Source: Rhodospirillales bacterium BBD 1991-14 (GTDB lineage Bacteria > Pseudomonadota > Alphaproteobacteria > Kiloniellales > Kiloniellaceae). Taken from it: a stretch of 64,000 nucleotides of DNA. The notes under the pieces were generated by a model. That model saw only the letters and a list, made by a program, of their open reading frames with translations, did no database searches and was not told where the DNA came from. The position numbers and the translations under genes are program-made. Positions 26,609 through 30,997 of this stretch are shown here, piece by piece (within the stretch, counting starts at the first letter, position 1; each line of letters starts with the position of its first letter). Location of the stretch: the NCBI GenBank assembly GCA_001657395.1, contig LYSY01000008.1, positions 1 to 64,000 of the forward strand, read 5' to 3'.

Positions 26609-27595
26609 ATGGCGCAGACCAGCCAGAGCCAGCCCCGGCATGCGAAAGTCCTCATCATCGGCTCCGGCGCCGCCGGGCTGACGGCGGCGATCTACACCGC
26701 CCGCGCCAACCTGAGCCCGGCCCTGGTGCACGGCCTGCAGCCGGGCGGCCAGATGACCATCACCACCGATGTGGAGAACTACCCGGGCTTCGCCGACGTC
26801 ATCCAGGGCCCCTGGCTGATGGAGCAGATGCAGAAGCAGGCCGAGCATGTCGGCACGGAGCTGATCTCCGACATCGTCACCGAGGTGGACTTCACCCGCC
26901 GCCCCTTCGTGCTGAAAGGCGACAGCGGCACCACCTATACCGCCGACGCGGTGATCGTGGCCACCGGCGCCCAGGCGCGCTGGCTGGGCATCGCCGGCGA
27001 GCAGAAGTTCAACGGCCGCGGCGTTTCCGCCTGCGCGACCTGCGACGGATTTTTCTACCGGGACAAGGAGGTCGTGGTGGTCGGCGGCGGCAACACCGCC
27101 GTGGAAGAAGCGCTCTACCTCTCCAACATCTGCTCCAAGGTCACGCTGGTGCACCGCCGCGATGCCCTGCGCGCCGAGAAAATCGGCCAGGACCGCCTGT
27201 TCCGCAATCCCAAGATCGAGGTGCGCTGGAACGCCGTGGTGGACGATATCCTGGGCGGCGACGGGCCGATGGACGGGGTGGAGGCGGTGCGCCTGCGCGA
27301 CACCAAGACCGGGGCGCTCAGCGAACTGGCCTGCGAGGGTGTCTTCGTCGCCATCGGCCACGACCCGGCCACGGCCGTCTTCAAGGACAAGCTGGCGATG
27401 GACGCGGAAGGCTATCTGCTGTCGGAGAGCGGCGCCACCGGCACCTCCATACCCGGCGTCTTCGCCGCCGGCGACTGCGTCGACAAGGTCTTCCGCCAGG
27501 CGGTCACCGCCGCCGGCATGGGCTGCATGGCCGCCCTGGAAGCCGAGAAGTATCTGGCGGAAATGGAAGATTCCGCGACCGAAGCGGCGGAATAG
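26609..27595 (+). CDS. trxB: Thioredoxin-disulfide reductase
   Basis: 328 residues, ATG at 26609 preceded by AGGAGTC. It has the FAD-binding motif GSGAAGLTAAIYTARA, the redox-active Cys142-Ala-Thr-Cys145 (SACATCDGFFY), the NADPH-binding GGGNTAVEEALYLS with HRRD, and the C-terminal FAD motif GVFAAGDCVD. It is therefore a complete, conventional low-Mr thioredoxin reductase transferring electrons from NADPH to thioredoxin in the cytosol. Thioredoxin in turn supports methionine-sulfoxide reductase MsrB encoded later in the window. It is followed, after a short gap, by a LysR-type regulator on the same strand. Confidence 0.97.
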   Translation: MAQTSQSQPRHAKVLIIGSGAAGLTAAIYTARANLSPALVHGLQPGGQMTITTDVENYPGFADVIQGPWLMEQMQKQAEHVGTELISDIVTEVDFTRRPFVLKGDSGTTYTADAVIVATGAQARWLGIAGEQKFNGRGVSACATCDGFFYRDKEVVVVGGGNTAVEEALYLSNICSKVTLVHRRDALRAEKIGQDRLFRNPKIEVRWNAVVDDILGGDGPMDGVEAVRLRDTKTGALSELACEGVFVAIGHDPATAVFKDKLAMDAEGYLLSESGATGTSIPGVFAAGDCVDKVFRQAVTAAGMGCMAALEAEKYLAEMEDSATEAAE

Positions 27596-27742: not shown

Positions 27743-28684
27743 TTGCTGGACGATGTTGGCCTGCCCCAGAAGCGGGGTCTCGGCGCCACCATCATGGATT
27801 GGGACAAGCTGCGCATCTTCCACGCGGTGGCGGAGGCGGGCAGCTTCACCCATGCCGGCGAGCTGTTGAACCTCAGCCAGTCGGCGGTGAGCCGCCAGAT
27901 CTCCGCCCTGGAAGACAGCCTGAAGGTGCCGCTGTTCCACCGCCATGCCCGCGGCCTGATCCTCACCGAGCAGGGCGAGCTGCTGTACCGCACCGCGCAC
28001 GAGGTCTTCGGCAAGCTGGCGATGACCGAGGCCCAGCTCACCGAGAGCAAGGACCGCCCCAAGGGGCCCCTGAAGATCACCACCACGGTGGCCTTCGGCT
28101 CCCAGTGGCTGGCTCCGCGCATGCACGAGTTCCTCGACGTTTATCCGGAGATCGAGTGCCACCTGCTGCTGCTCGACCGGGAGGTCGACCTGTCGATGCG
28201 CGAGGCCGATCTTGCTGTGCGCTTCTCGCCGCCGCGCCAGGCCGATCTGATCCAGCGCCATCTGATGACGGTGCAGATGCACATCTACGCCGCCGCCAGC
28301 TACATCAAGAAGCACGGCGTGCCGCAGACCGCCGAGGAACTGGACGACCACCGCATCGTGGTCTACGGCGAGGACGTGCGCCCGCCGGTGCCGGACGTGA
28401 ACTGGCTGCTCCGGGTCGGCTACAAGGAGGGCAAGCTGCGCCGCCCCACCATGACGGTCAACAACGTCTACGGCGTGATGAAAGCGGTGCAGTCCGGGGC
28501 CGGAATCGGCGCCCTGCCGGAGTACATGAGCTCCAGCAACGCCGATCTCGTGGAGATCCTGCCGGAGCTCACGGGGCCCCAGTTCGATGCCTATTTCGTC
28601 TATGCCGAAGAGATGAGACGGTCTAAGCGGATCTCCGTGTTTCGGGATTTTCTGCTCCGAAAAGTTGCAGAGTCGAAGTTCTAA
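27743..28684 (+). CDS. LysR-family transcriptional regulator
   Basis: 313 residues from a TTG at 27743, chosen because GGGAGG lies six bases upstream; an in-frame ATG at 27794 (MDWDKLRIFHAV) has no ribosome site but would match the start of most homologues, so the true start may be either. The winged helix-turn-helix is AGSFTHAGELLNLSQSAVSRQISALEDSL. The effector domain follows (TTTVAFGSQWLAPRMHEFLDVYPEIE). A direct repeat GGCCTATACT (27612 and 27624) lies upstream of the gene and could be a binding site. It ends with a strong terminator at 28708-28752. Regulated genes unknown; trxB is adjacent upstream. Confidence 0.9.
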   Translation: MLDDVGLPQKRGLGATIMDWDKLRIFHAVAEAGSFTHAGELLNLSQSAVSRQISALEDSLKVPLFHRHARGLILTEQGELLYRTAHEVFGKLAMTEAQLTESKDRPKGPLKITTTVAFGSQWLAPRMHEFLDVYPEIECHLLLLDREVDLSMREADLAVRFSPPRQADLIQRHLMTVQMHIYAAASYIKKHGVPQTAEELDDHRIVVYGEDVRPPVPDVNWLLRVGYKEGKLRRPTMTVNNVYGVMKAVQSGAGIGALPEYMSSSNADLVEILPELTGPQFDAYFVYAEEMRRSKRISVFRDFLLRKVAESKF

Positions 28685-28707
28685 AACCTTTAACGCGACC
28701 TCGCAAC

Positions 28708-28752
28708 GCAGCGGAATAGACGGCTAAGGGCATGCCGCCGCTGCCTTTTTTT
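28708..28752 (+). terminator. Rho-independent terminator of the LysR gene
   Basis: GCAGCGG pairs with CCGCTGC with an inner CGGC/GCCG stem, followed by CTTTTTTT. It isolates the LysR transcript from the RNA-like segment that follows. Confidence 0.75.
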
Positions 28753-28849
28753 CGCGATGTTTCAGTTATTTAACAAGGTATGCAGCGCCCGCATATCACC
28801 ACTGCCCATATGTCTGTAGTAAAATAACCTCAAAAGCCTATTTTCAAAT

Positions 28850-29033
28850 CATCGGATGTTGCGACGCAGCATCCCCGAGTTCCCGGCACCCTCCCGCCGG
28901 CACTCAGTTCCGAGCGCCCCCCGCTCGGAGAAGGGCCTCACCGCAGGGCTCCCTCCCTGCCCCGAGGTCCTACGTCTCCCAGACGTGAAGCCTCCCTGTT
29001 CAACTTGCCGGGCCCTCGAGGCCCGGCTTTTTT
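28850..29033 (+). ncRNA. Candidate structured small RNA with C-rich (anti-Shine-Dalgarno) loops
   Basis: After the LysR terminator there is no protein gene, but five consecutive hairpins and an independent terminator. H1 28854-28874 has an 8-bp stem. H2 28883-28900 has loop ACCCTCCC. H3 28909-28929 has an 8-bp stem with loop CCCCC. H4 28933-28970 has an outer 7-bp and inner 6-bp stem with loop CTCCCT. H5 28972-28986 has loop CCC. A single-stranded CCTCCC follows, and then the terminator. Loops rich in CUCCC can pair with ribosome-binding sites; alphaproteobacterial sRNAs of the CcsR/cuckoo type use such loops. The 5' end is not fixed and no clear promoter was found. Confidence 0.65.
29007..29033 (+). 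terminator. Terminator of the candidate small RNA
   Basis: Perfect 8-bp stem GCCGGGCC / GGCCCGGC with loop CTCGA, followed by TTTTTT. No plus-strand protein gene precedes it after the LysR terminator. Confidence 0.9.
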
Positions 29034-29130
29034 CTTTTGGGGTTGAGGCGCGCCAAGCGGCGCAGGCGGGGGATGCGGCAGGCCGGGGATGCGATAGAGC
29101 AGGGGCGAACGGCTTGCAGCGGAATGGTTG

Positions 29131-29240
29131 TCACCCCCACCCCATCCCTCCCCCATCCAAGGGGGAGGGGCAATCCATTGCGGCGGCCAAAAAGAATGCC
29201 CTCCCCCCTTGATGGGGGGAGGTCGGGAGGGGGGTGAGCC
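29131..29240. repeat. Large inverted REP-like element
   Basis: Left arm TCACCCCC...CCCTCCCCC and right arm GGGGGGAG...GGGGGTGA are inverted copies about 40 bases long. Each also contains its own hairpin (CCCTCCCCC/GGGGGAGGG; CCCTCCCCCC/GGGGGGAGG). Between them is GCAATCCATTGC, also found in the element at 24505-24595. It is a typical dispersed GC-rich element of alphaproteobacterial genomes, and sits about 80 bases downstream of the msrP stop. Confidence 0.75.
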
Positions 29241-29320: not shown

Positions 29321-30331
29321 TTACATGAACAGCCGCTCTGCTTTCGGGTCCATGTCCTTGTAGAGGTCGGCGACGAACTCGCCGTAGCCGTTGTAGAGCA
29401 GGGTCGGCACCCGCTCGTCGACGCCCAGCACCCGTTCGGTCGCCTGGCTCCAGCGCGGATGGGGCACCTCCGGATTCACGTTGGCCCAGAAGCCGTACTC
29501 ACCGCCCTGGATCTCCTCCCAGAAGGAGACGGGACGCTGGTCGGTGAACTCGAAGCGCACGATGCCCTTGATGTGCTTGAAGCCGTACTTCCAGGGGACG
29601 GCGAGACGCAGCGGGGCGCCGTTCTGCTTGGGGATCGGCTTGCCGTAGAGCCCGGTGGCGATGAAGGCCAGTTCGTGGGTCGCCTCGGCCATCGTCAGGC
29701 CTTCGATATAGGGCCAGGGGTACCAGGCCGCGTTCTGGCCGGAAGCCGTGTCACGGTCGAGGAAGGTTTCCATGCGCACATAGCGCGCCGACGACAGCGG
29801 CCGCGCCAGGTCCACAAGTGCCTTCATGGGAAAGCCGCTGTAGGGCACGGCCATGGACCAGGCCTCCACGCAGCGGTGGCGGTAGAGGCGTTCCTCCAGC
29901 GGCATCTTGGCCAGCAGGTCGTCGATGCCGATCTGCATCGGCGTTTCCACCATGCCGTCGATAGCCACCGTCCAGGGGCGGATCGGCAGGGCCTGGGCCT
30001 TCTGCCAGATGTTCTTGGACGACCCGAACTCGTAGTAGTTGTTGTAGGTGGTGGCCAGCGTCTCGTCGGTGATCGGCCGGTCGAGGACATAACGTTCGTT
30101 GCGGTCCACCGGATAGAGGCCGGCGGAGGGGTCTTCCGCAGGCTTTGGATCTTCGGCGGCCTCGGCCACCTGGTTCGGCGCTTCGTCGCAGGCGGCCAGC
30201 AGCCCGCCGGCCCCCAGCAGCAGCGGCCCGGCGGCGGCGGCCTTCAGGAGGCTGCGGCGCTTCAGGAAAACATCTTCCGGTGTGGCCTGGGATTCCGGCA
30301 GTTCCCAGCCGCGCTTGATCCGAATCAGCAT
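29321..30331 (-). CDS. msrP: Protein-methionine-sulfoxide reductase catalytic subunit MsrP (YedY)
   Basis: 336 residues. It has a Tat signal (KRRSLLKAAAAG, twin Arg 25-26) ending in LLAAC, which also fits a lipobox at Cys48. The SUOX-type molybdopterin domain has the Mo-ligating Cys154 (RHRCVEAWSMAVPYSGFPM), GAPLRLAVPWKYGFKHIKGI and NPEVPHPRWSQATER, all hallmark MsrP sequences. It repairs oxidised methionine in periplasmic proteins. The usual membrane haem partner MsrQ is not adjacent: the genes on either side are a repeat/sRNA region and dps. The Mo cofactor genes mobB/moeA/moaD/moaE are elsewhere in the window. Confidence 0.95.
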   Translation of the reverse strand: MLIRIKRGWELPESQATPEDVFLKRRSLLKAAAAGPLLLGAGGLLAACDEAPNQVAEAAEDPKPAEDPSAGLYPVDRNERYVLDRPITDETLATTYNNYYEFGSSKNIWQKAQALPIRPWTVAIDGMVETPMQIGIDDLLAKMPLEERLYRHRCVEAWSMAVPYSGFPMKALVDLARPLSSARYVRMETFLDRDTASGQNAAWYPWPYIEGLTMAEATHELAFIATGLYGKPIPKQNGAPLRLAVPWKYGFKHIKGIVRFEFTDQRPVSFWEEIQGGEYGFWANVNPEVPHPRWSQATERVLGVDERVPTLLYNGYGEFVADLYKDMDPKAERLFM

Positions 30332-30529
30332 GCGATTCCCTTCCCTCGGGGGCCTGGAACGGGCCCCTTCAACCGACTAAGGCAACAGTTACGGGCGACA
30401 CTTCTGGAGGTAGCCCGCAGCCCGCGGCCGGACAAGTCAACAAAATGCGAGCGCCCCGCCCCCTGTAACGGGGGCAGGGCCGCGGGCAGAACAGAAACTA
30501 GGAATGAATGCCTTTGGCGCGAAAATCGC

Positions 30530-30997
30530 TCAATCGAGCAGGGAGCGCAGCATCCAGGCGGTCTTCTCGTGCACCGTCATGCGCTGGGTCAGCAGGTCCG
30601 CCGTAACCTCGTCGTTGCCGGCCTCGGCGGCGGGAAAGACCGAGCGTGCGGTCTTGGCCACGGCCTCGTGACCGGCCACGAGCTGGCGGATCATCTCCCG
30701 GGCTTCCGGCACGCCCGCCTCTTCCTCGATGGAGGTCAGCTTGGCAAAGGCCGCATAGCTGCCCGGCGCCGGCTCGCCGAGGGAGCGGATGCGCTCGGCC
30801 ACCTCGTCCAGGGCCGCCCAGAGCTCGGTGTATTCCTCCTCGAACATGGTGTGCAGGGTCTGGAACATCGGCCCCGTCACATTCCAGTGGAACCCGTGGG
30901 TTTTCAGGTAGAGGGTGTAGGTGTCCGCCAGGACATGGGACAAACCCTCGGCAATGGCCTTGCGGTCGTCAGCGGGAATGCCGGTATTGATCTCCAT
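30530..30997 (-). CDS. dps: Dps-family ferritin-like DNA-protecting protein
   Basis: 155 residues. It has the four-helix ferritin-like fold with the Dps ferroxidase signature at the dimer interface: [21 protein letters not shown] (the two His) and [23 protein letters not shown] (the acidic Asp/Glu set). Dodecameric Dps proteins oxidise and store iron and so protect DNA from peroxide chemistry. No Lys-rich N-terminal DNA-binding tail is evident. Upstream is a candidate sigma-70 promoter with an Irr-type palindrome, which fits iron control of the gene. Confidence 0.88.

Follow-up and report, generated by a model that had tools for sequence, protein, structure and literature searches.

The closest described systems are two kinds of alphaproteobacterial small RNA, AbcR and SorX. 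AbcR genes are placed directly downstream of trxB-lsrB/vtlR in PMC7486931, and their motif M1 is given as CUCCCA in PMC5461406. In Sinorhizobium the LsrB/VtlR regulator activates the AbcR sRNAs from the same position as that of the sRNA considered here, and PMC8844928 reports for S. meliloti an LsrB motif that starts at -61 and whose removal cuts the promoter more than 22-fold. SorX is described in PMC9438474 as Hfq-dependent and as blocking translation of the polyamine-transporter gene potA. Here we analyze a candidate sRNA gene in a window that comprises the whole 64,000-nucleotide stretch at the start of contig LYSY01000008.1 of Rhodospirillales bacterium BBD 1991-14; an initial annotation, made from the letters alone, had drawn attention to the candidate. 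What lies there is a structured and conserved module without a conserved reading frame, with a conserved box upstream and with linkage to an ortholog of LsrB/VtlR over much of the class. The module is probably an anti-SD sRNA that is activated by the LysR protein and represses ABC-transporter mRNAs.

The gene order at the locus is trxB, then a LysR gene, then the candidate sRNA, with the gene of MsrP (methionine sulfoxide reductase) beyond it on the opposite strand, and the sRNA is directly downstream of trxB-lsrB/vtlR as AbcR genes are. The thioredoxin-disulfide reductase gene trxB (26609..27595, + strand; NCBIfam TIGR01292, 411.7 bits, above cut-off) is an ORF open from 26489 for which the start at 26609 was our choice, and its product has 65% identity over 311 columns with TrxB of the S. 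meliloti trxB-lsrB-abcR locus. The LysR-type regulator gene (27794..28684, + strand) encodes a protein with 49% identity to S. meliloti LsrB over the full length; with S. meliloti LsrB as query it is the top match in the genome at 324.9 bits, the second LysR reaching 122.9, and both the reciprocal match with S. meliloti LsrB and the linkage to trxB identify it as an LsrB/VtlR ortholog. An ortholog at this locus does not fit the statement in a passage of PMC11975290 that LsrB is unique to Rhizobiales. A passage of the same source describes C144 and C273 of Agrobacterium LsrB as used in redox sensing. When the S. meliloti cysteines of HADC (142) and YFCY (271) are taken as these two, the window LysR protein has Leu and Val at the aligned positions, and counterparts are also missing from two other non-Rhizobiaceae LysR sequences aligned; the activating signal in the window's organism may therefore differ. 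Beyond the module, at 29321-30997, there are MsrP and an ORF that we take from its letters to be Dps-like, and together with trxB these make up an oxidative-stress neighbourhood; MsrP is close to the sRNA in 13 of 30 order-level loci. Between the sRNA and msrP, at 29131-29237, there are inverted repeats with runs of G and C (CCCTCCCCCATCCAAGGGGGAGGG and a second pair), and a search of 358 loci for the pattern gave 3 matches, each of which is this very site.

Upstream of the sRNA is a 15-bp palindromic box, ATGCAGCGCCCGCAT (ATGC-N7-GCAT, 28780..28794, + strand), which its conservation and its presence in Rhizobiaceae suggest as the site of the LysR protein. The exact ATGC-N7-GCAT form occurs at most 420 nt behind LysR in all 28 order-level loci in which the LysR end is visible, against a mean of 0.16 in letter shuffles, and in the class it occurs in 42 of 61 loci with the sRNA module versus 3 of 29 without. 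The distance from the LysR stop to the box varies from 5 to 340 nt. From the H1 motif, which belongs to the 5′ hairpin of the RNA, to the box centre there are 67–73 nt in 43/43 distinct loci having both (27/28 in the order), a box with up to one mismatch being allowed; of the 89 rows surveyed, 41 gave no match to the H1 pattern, nearly all of these being outside the order, and 3 gave no box. The box and this spacing point to a separate promoter. The initial annotation had set the extent at 28850-29033, but the gene also includes the box, which is outside those limits. The identical form is found upstream of ar15/AbcR1 in S. meliloti (L129, 3526-3540) and R. leguminosarum (L137, 3420-3434), and GCAT begins 61 nt before the ar15 match in both, the corresponding distance from GCAT to H1 in the window being 63 nt. 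An LsrB/VtlR box upstream of the promoter, as at AbcR genes, is thus found here as ATGC-N7-GCAT, but of the longer motif published for LsrB in S. meliloti, GCAT-N3-TG-N3-T, only a part is present, as GCAT-ATC-AC-CAC-T. We infer that the window LysR protein binds this box. Counting 61 nt from the window GCAT at 28791, as the S. meliloti spacing would have it, puts a predicted transcription start near 28852, with a predicted -10 region CTATTT (28838..28852 for the two together, + strand); a simple scan found no sigma-70 consensus promoter.

When 28850-29033 is folded on the + strand, 28854-29033 forms five hairpins and a terminator, separated by a C-rich linker of 20 nt that stays single-stranded. 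The minimum free energy is -91 kcal/mol, whereas shuffles average -63.5 (z -6.94; as low in 0/200 shuffles). The 5′ hairpin H1, GGAUGUUGC-GAC-GCAGCAUCC (28854-28874), is indicated by the fold, by the spacing of its motif to the box and by pairing in relatives. It is followed on the same + strand by H2 with loop ACCCUCCC (28877-28905, from the fold), H3 with loop CCCCC (28908-28930, from the fold and changes on both sides of the stem), the long hairpin H4 with loop CUCCCU (28932-28971, from the fold) and H5, ACGUCU-CCC-AGACGU, which exposes CUCCCA (28972-28986, from the fold and pairing in relatives). The single-stranded linker GAAGCCUCCCUGUUCAACUU (28987-29006), proposed from fold and conservation as the main anti-SD site, leads into an intrinsic terminator (29007-29033) whose stem at 29007-29027 has 8 G-C pairs in the terminator scan and is followed by T6, and which is also indicated by the fold and by class-level changes. 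The opposite strand has a good fold as well (z -3.62), and the terminator scan inside the stretch listed no terminator-like site on it. The fold confirms the series of five hairpins and a terminator with T6 that had been proposed initially, and the C-rich loops named at that time, CCCTCCC, CCCCC, CTCCCT and CCTCCC, are all present, with H5 additionally exposing the CCC of CUCCCA. A long ORF, 28856-29212, begins within H1. Its N-terminus is common to relatives due solely to conservation of the stem, and it was rejected as coding because its frame relative to the conserved core differs between relatives when 27 order-level loci are translated, which upholds the earlier view that the RNA has no coding potential. 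The sequence points to 28854-29033 as a predicted separate, non-coding sRNA gene; the fold and the helices kept in relatives support the earlier reading of an apparently independent sRNA gene with anti-SD sites and its own terminator.

Support for the helices differs between levels of comparison. In the order-level test, with 29 sequences and an alignment not fitted to structure, 93.5% of cells pair, compared with 33–41% when the pairing is slid, and letter-dealing shuffles already reach 90.0% because most columns hardly vary. Changes on both sides of a pair occur in 26 cells, where shuffles average 7.5, and the pairs concerned number 9, where shuffles average 4.9. There was no excess of further pair types at this level (24, a number reached in 105/500 shuffles). 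Among the 29 sequences, H1 has 90.4% of cells paired with mainly one-sided changes, the H3 stem has both-sided changes in 7/7 counted pairs, and H5 has 99.4% of cells paired, H5 and the terminator hardly varying in the order. At the class level, H5 and the terminator together have 11 modelled pairs, 6 of them in the terminator, and every one shows both-sided changes that keep the pair; the alignment used was fitted to R1, a model built from the order-level sequences, and hence leans towards that model.

The CCCCC loop of H3 is present in 8/8 genus rows, own genome included, and in genus rows only; the H2 loop is C-rich in 6/8 genus rows, whereas other members of the order have a variable H2 loop or none. 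Two genus members (L006, L007) have no apical part of H4. In other order members the loops of H2–H4 are patchy and often UUCG, GCAA or GCCU. The loop of H5 and the linker (CCUCCCUGUU) are invariant in the 29 order-level sequences of the alignment, which were gathered by DNA match to the RNA itself, and they are the only C-rich sites constant in the order, the C-rich loops of H2–H4 being mostly a genus trait. As these extra loops are mostly lineage-specific, the idea that the run of loops is the functional point, which had been put forward initially from their number, is weakened, though loop number may matter within the genus.

A DNA search with the RNA found a match at E 0.01 in 54/58 genomes (own included) and 25/27 genera, and the 30 best-matching places form the order-level set. 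In 28 of these 30 the sRNA core is directly preceded by a LysR ortholog, the other two (L012, L021) being near contig ends, and the 3′ module ACGUCUCCCAGACGUGAAGCCUCCCUGUUCAACUUGCCGGG, that is the CUCCCA hairpin, the CCUCCCUGUU linker and the terminator, is almost letter-identical in the order-level loci. In the class, LysR is present in 103/190 genomes at E 1e-80, and one locus each was taken from 90 of the 103, with the 11 lowest-scoring genomes and two with LysR at a contig end (G218, G242) left out. R1 finds the module beside LysR in 61/90 of these class loci (64 matches, E up to 0.0024), a count that includes the window itself (L031) and a member of the model (L033). Four matches are weak (at most 24.8 bits) and one, L078, is without the linker; the CCUCCCUGUU linker is present in most of the 64. 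The other 29/90 have LysR and no R1 match, and at least 5 of them have a match to the SorX model 1.8–5.6 kb away. No R1 match was found downstream of LysR in Tistrella (L132), Methylobacterium (L135), Microvirga (L138) or two Azospirillum plasmids (L133, L134), whose LsrB-like LysR copies have 61% identity to the window LysR and no trxB annotated in the stretch; in other Azospirillum records the core adjoins LysR.

Named genomes hold at least 118 stretches with the core, of which 80 were listed, and the labels of these 80 are Alphaproteobacteria, genera belonging to that class, or Proteobacteria alone. Genera among the matches listed include Azospirillum, Kiloniella, Reyranella, Roseomonas, Inquilinus, Nisaea and Magnetovibrio. 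Also among the matches listed, 64 named GTDB loci have at least 1200 nt upstream, with LysR within 600 nt in 51/64 and TrxB in 45/64, and the box ATG[CT]-N7-GCAT is present within 330 nt in 57/76 that have enough sequence. Two MAG contigs labelled ‘Rhizobium sp. Q54’ (L395, L434) carry the exact core, though named Rhizobiaceae loci show ar15, and they are possibly mislabelled bins. Behind LysR there are arrays in two loci, with three R1 matches in L076 (1596-2197) and two in L066 (1902-2188), several hairpins with CUCCCA-type loops and ATGC-N7-GCAT boxes recurring between the copies. A second candidate occurs in the window's own genome (L122, ~1502-1622, - strand, the same as G000:C19 near 488406-488474), with C-rich stretches, a linker GCCUCCCUGUUAAACUUGCCG and a terminator; it is intergenic with no LysR beside it, scores 28.6 bits with R1 and folds with z -3.8. 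It may be a second copy of the sRNA in this genome, comparable to AbcR2 beside AbcR1.

At curated cut-offs Rfam matched only a tRNA in the window, with none at 28850-29033, and it matched nothing in 20 class loci scanned; such genes therefore go unannotated. A relaxed search of 28700-29130 gave SorX as the best match (36.4 bits, E 2.6e-7, cut-off 46.6), with anti-hemB at 24.4 bits (cut-off 49.5) and suhB/MmgR at 24.2 bits (cut-off 41) as further matches. The ar15 model (RF02345) had no match up to E 5 in the same 28700-29130, and it does find Rhizobiaceae loci, where ar15/AbcR pairs lie downstream of LysR in S. meliloti, Shinella, Sinorhizobium sp. K101 and R. leguminosarum. R1 in turn had no match to Rhizobiaceae ar15 genes. 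A genome search with RF02345 gave 0/240 class genomes, which is uninformative on absence because its 14 controls were silent too, and named Rhizobiaceae loci of the plasmid collection were used instead. Neither model finds the loci of the other, so the case for common descent with AbcR is one of position, regulator and box, not of sequence.

The SorX model matches 68/230 class genomes, over the cut-off in 2, and 1/14 controls. In 42/68 the SorX match and LysR are on one contig and strand when compared by hand; SorX is at most 500 bp downstream of LysR in 36 of those 42, 1.8–5.6 kb downstream in five, and ~289 kb away in G197. The remaining 26/68 have SorX and LysR on different contigs, have no LysR found, or are genomes outside the LysR search. 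In the five genomes of intermediate distance (G220, G217, G089, G093, G233) other sequence lies between LysR and the SorX-like match. The SorX of Paracoccus denitrificans is beside LysR and scores 52.6 bits with the SorX model, over the cut-off, and E 3.1e-6 with R1. G210 has an above-cut-off SorX match beside LysR and others elsewhere, and G079 has a below-cut-off match beside LysR and above-cut-off ones elsewhere, a pattern from which SorX proper would be a relocated copy.

Evidence on targets comes from the ribosome sites of binding-protein genes, AGGGAG and UGGGAG being complementary to the sites in the linker and in H5. In the window's own genome, 70 places from four solute-binding-protein families (two below curated cut-off, kept) were compared with the 30 best of 54 dehydrogenase places and with 206 ORFs from 400 kb, from which binding-protein genes were not removed, and starts were called by one simple heuristic for all genes. 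The form [AT]GGGAG, chosen after viewing this genome, is at the ribosome site in 28/70 binding-protein genes; the share is 4/30 among dehydrogenase genes (p 0.007 for the comparison) and 18/206 among the other ORFs (p 1.6e-8). In a second genome, G036, from another family of the order (1.6 Mb of 4.2 Mb, genes by tblastn), the corresponding counts are 5/12 versus 0/15 (p 0.010) and 62/876 (p 0.001). Plain GGGAG occurs in the ribosome-site region of 35/70 binding-protein genes, 9/30 dehydrogenase genes and 33/206 other ORFs of the own genome, and alone it does not separate the first two groups (p 0.05; 6/12 versus 7/15 in G036). Set against AGGAG, it likewise does not separate binding-protein genes from dehydrogenases (35:9 versus 9:3, p 0.50) but does separate them from other ORFs (35:9 versus 33:33, p 0.0015). 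When only GGAG-bearing genes are considered, [AT]GGGAG is not significant against dehydrogenases in the own genome (28/52 versus 4/13, p 0.12), but it is significant against other ORFs there (18/101) and in G036 (5/9 versus 0/13 and versus 62/386). The pattern spans several binding-protein families. Binding-protein genes have stronger SDs generally, as the energy of a plain anti-SD gives p 0.0004 versus p 0.024 for the linker; separation by hybridisation energy gives p 0.0045 for H5, 0.0022 for H2, 0.12 for H4 and 0.997 for H3, the part of the linker outside CCUCCC gives p 0.25 for separating transporter genes, and 4/60 versions of the linker with shuffled flanks separate the genes as well as the real one does. 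Hybridisation energies were not used as support for targets. ABC-transporter mRNAs are supported as targets by the SD pattern, though the result is a small one and in part post hoc.

The mechanism that we propose begins with a trans-acting anti-SD sRNA of ~180 nt, which would be transcribed from ~28852 to 29033. By comparison with S. meliloti, Agrobacterium and Brucella, the LsrB/VtlR-type LysR protein would bind the box (28780-28794), the centre of which is near -65, and activate a weak promoter. Two conserved parts of the RNA, CCUCCCUGUU in the linker and CUCCCA in H5, would pair with AGGGAG(G) and UGGGAG(G) ribosome sites, which are enriched at periplasmic solute-binding-protein genes, and such pairing would block translation of ABC-transporter mRNAs, probably together with Hfq. 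H1 probably protects the 5′ end, and H2–H4 would form a variable domain in which extra C-rich loops were gained in the genus.

An alternative explanation could be a SorX-type sRNA with one dominant target in polyamine uptake, potA, and a role in stress, the AbcR-like position being secondary. SorX is indeed the best Rfam match of the window RNA, its model matches 68 class genomes, a Paracoccus member of the family is beside LysR, and the Hfq-dependent block of potA translation described in PMC9438474 would be the precedent; but the window RNA is below the SorX cut-off, in R. sphaeroides an OmpR-type gene yields SorX by cleavage at its 3′ end, whereas the window RNA has its own upstream box, and the SD pattern runs over several binding-protein families and not one target. 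We think this explanation unlikely as it stands, although it overlaps with the AbcR-like reading and SorX may be a relocated paralog. If instead the number of loops were what counted, the RNA could be a sponge, a general anti-SD titrator of ribosomes or other RNAs, in line with the ribosome-site titration suggested initially, as might be expected from four accessible C-rich stretches in addition to the H5 loop (the linker and the loops of H2, H3 and H4) and from the invariance of the H3 CCCCC loop in all eight genus members. That is distinctly unlikely, since in many order members the H2–H4 loops are UUCG, GCAA and the like while H5 and the linker are fixed, and since the letters on either side of CCUCCC (UGUUCAACUU) are conserved, which speaks for specific pairing, even if those letters alone give the p of 0.25 for transporter genes noted above. 

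It is very unlikely that the element is part of the LysR transcript, as a 3′-UTR element or attenuator and not a separate gene. In its favour are the position directly downstream of LysR on the same strand and the lack of a sigma-70 consensus site in the simple scan. Against it, the box, 67–73 nt from H1, suggests that the RNA has a promoter of its own; the interval between LysR stop and box ranges from 5 to 340 nt; and in five genomes the SorX-model match is 1.8–5.6 kb downstream with other sequence between. The anti-SD sRNA activated by LysR and acting on ABC-transporter mRNAs is thus the reading that we retain.

Far outside Rhizobiales, the locus thus combines the regulator with its box and with a linked sRNA whose 3′ module scarcely changes in the window's order, and direct tests are therefore possible: the same regulator–sRNA pair can be compared over the class, and targets are predictable from two fixed pairing sites. 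In the open-licence literature no paper naming SorX and AbcR1 together was found, nor, by title or abstract start, a description of the window RNA outside Rhizobiales; a literature search by the linker letters gave, among the matches listed, papers all unrelated by title.

Compared with known RNAs, the window RNA shares with AbcR1/AbcR2 (alpha-r15, RF02345) the gene order trxB-LsrB/VtlR-sRNA, the ATGC-N7-GCAT box at a near-equal distance, the succession of a CUCCCA hairpin, a single-stranded pyrimidine-rich site and a terminator, and binding-protein genes as likely targets. It differs in that the Rhizobiaceae locus has a tandem pair and this locus one copy, in length (114–121 nt in AbcR versus ~180 nt here, with the extra domain H1–H4), and in the linker, GUUCCCCUCUGG in AbcR versus CCUCCCUGUUC here; the M1 letters are present in H5, and M2, GUUCCC, is absent from the linker with CCUCCCUGUUC in its place. 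SorX (RF02784, Rhodobacter) has the same layout of CCUCCCUGUU linker and terminator, a Paracoccus member that adjoins the same LysR, and an ABC-transporter gene as known target, but the window RNA reaches only 36.4 bits under the cut-off of 46.6, and R. sphaeroides SorX is cut from the mRNA 3′ end of an OmpR-type gene whereas the gene upstream in the window is LysR and the RNA has its own box. The suhB/MmgR RNA (RF00519) resembles it in having a hairpin, a CUCCCU site and a terminator and in the weak match of 24.2 bits, but the cut-off is 41 and other letters surround the site. RNAs with CCUCCUCCC loops are those that we take to bear the family name CcsR/cuckoo, with which the window RNA has anti-SD loops in common and under which it had been filed initially. 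That filing does not hold: the CCUCCUCCC motif, as given in PMC3927594, is absent from 28850-29033, and the locus is a different one, that of trxB-LsrB/VtlR, the position of AbcR. Most likely AbcR, SorX and the window RNA descend from one LsrB-linked sRNA of an ancestral alphaproteobacterium. More tentatively, that ancestor could have been an anti-SD sRNA of early alphaproteobacteria with AGGGAG/UGGGAG as a class-wide ‘address’ at solute-binding-protein genes, to which the window's genus added C-rich sites that widened the targets; if so, the address would match the two invariant sites of the RNA. By the tests made, the window RNA is a member of neither the AbcR nor the SorX Rfam family; its locus, regulator and box make it the counterpart of AbcR, its sequence is closest to SorX, and it probably works like both.
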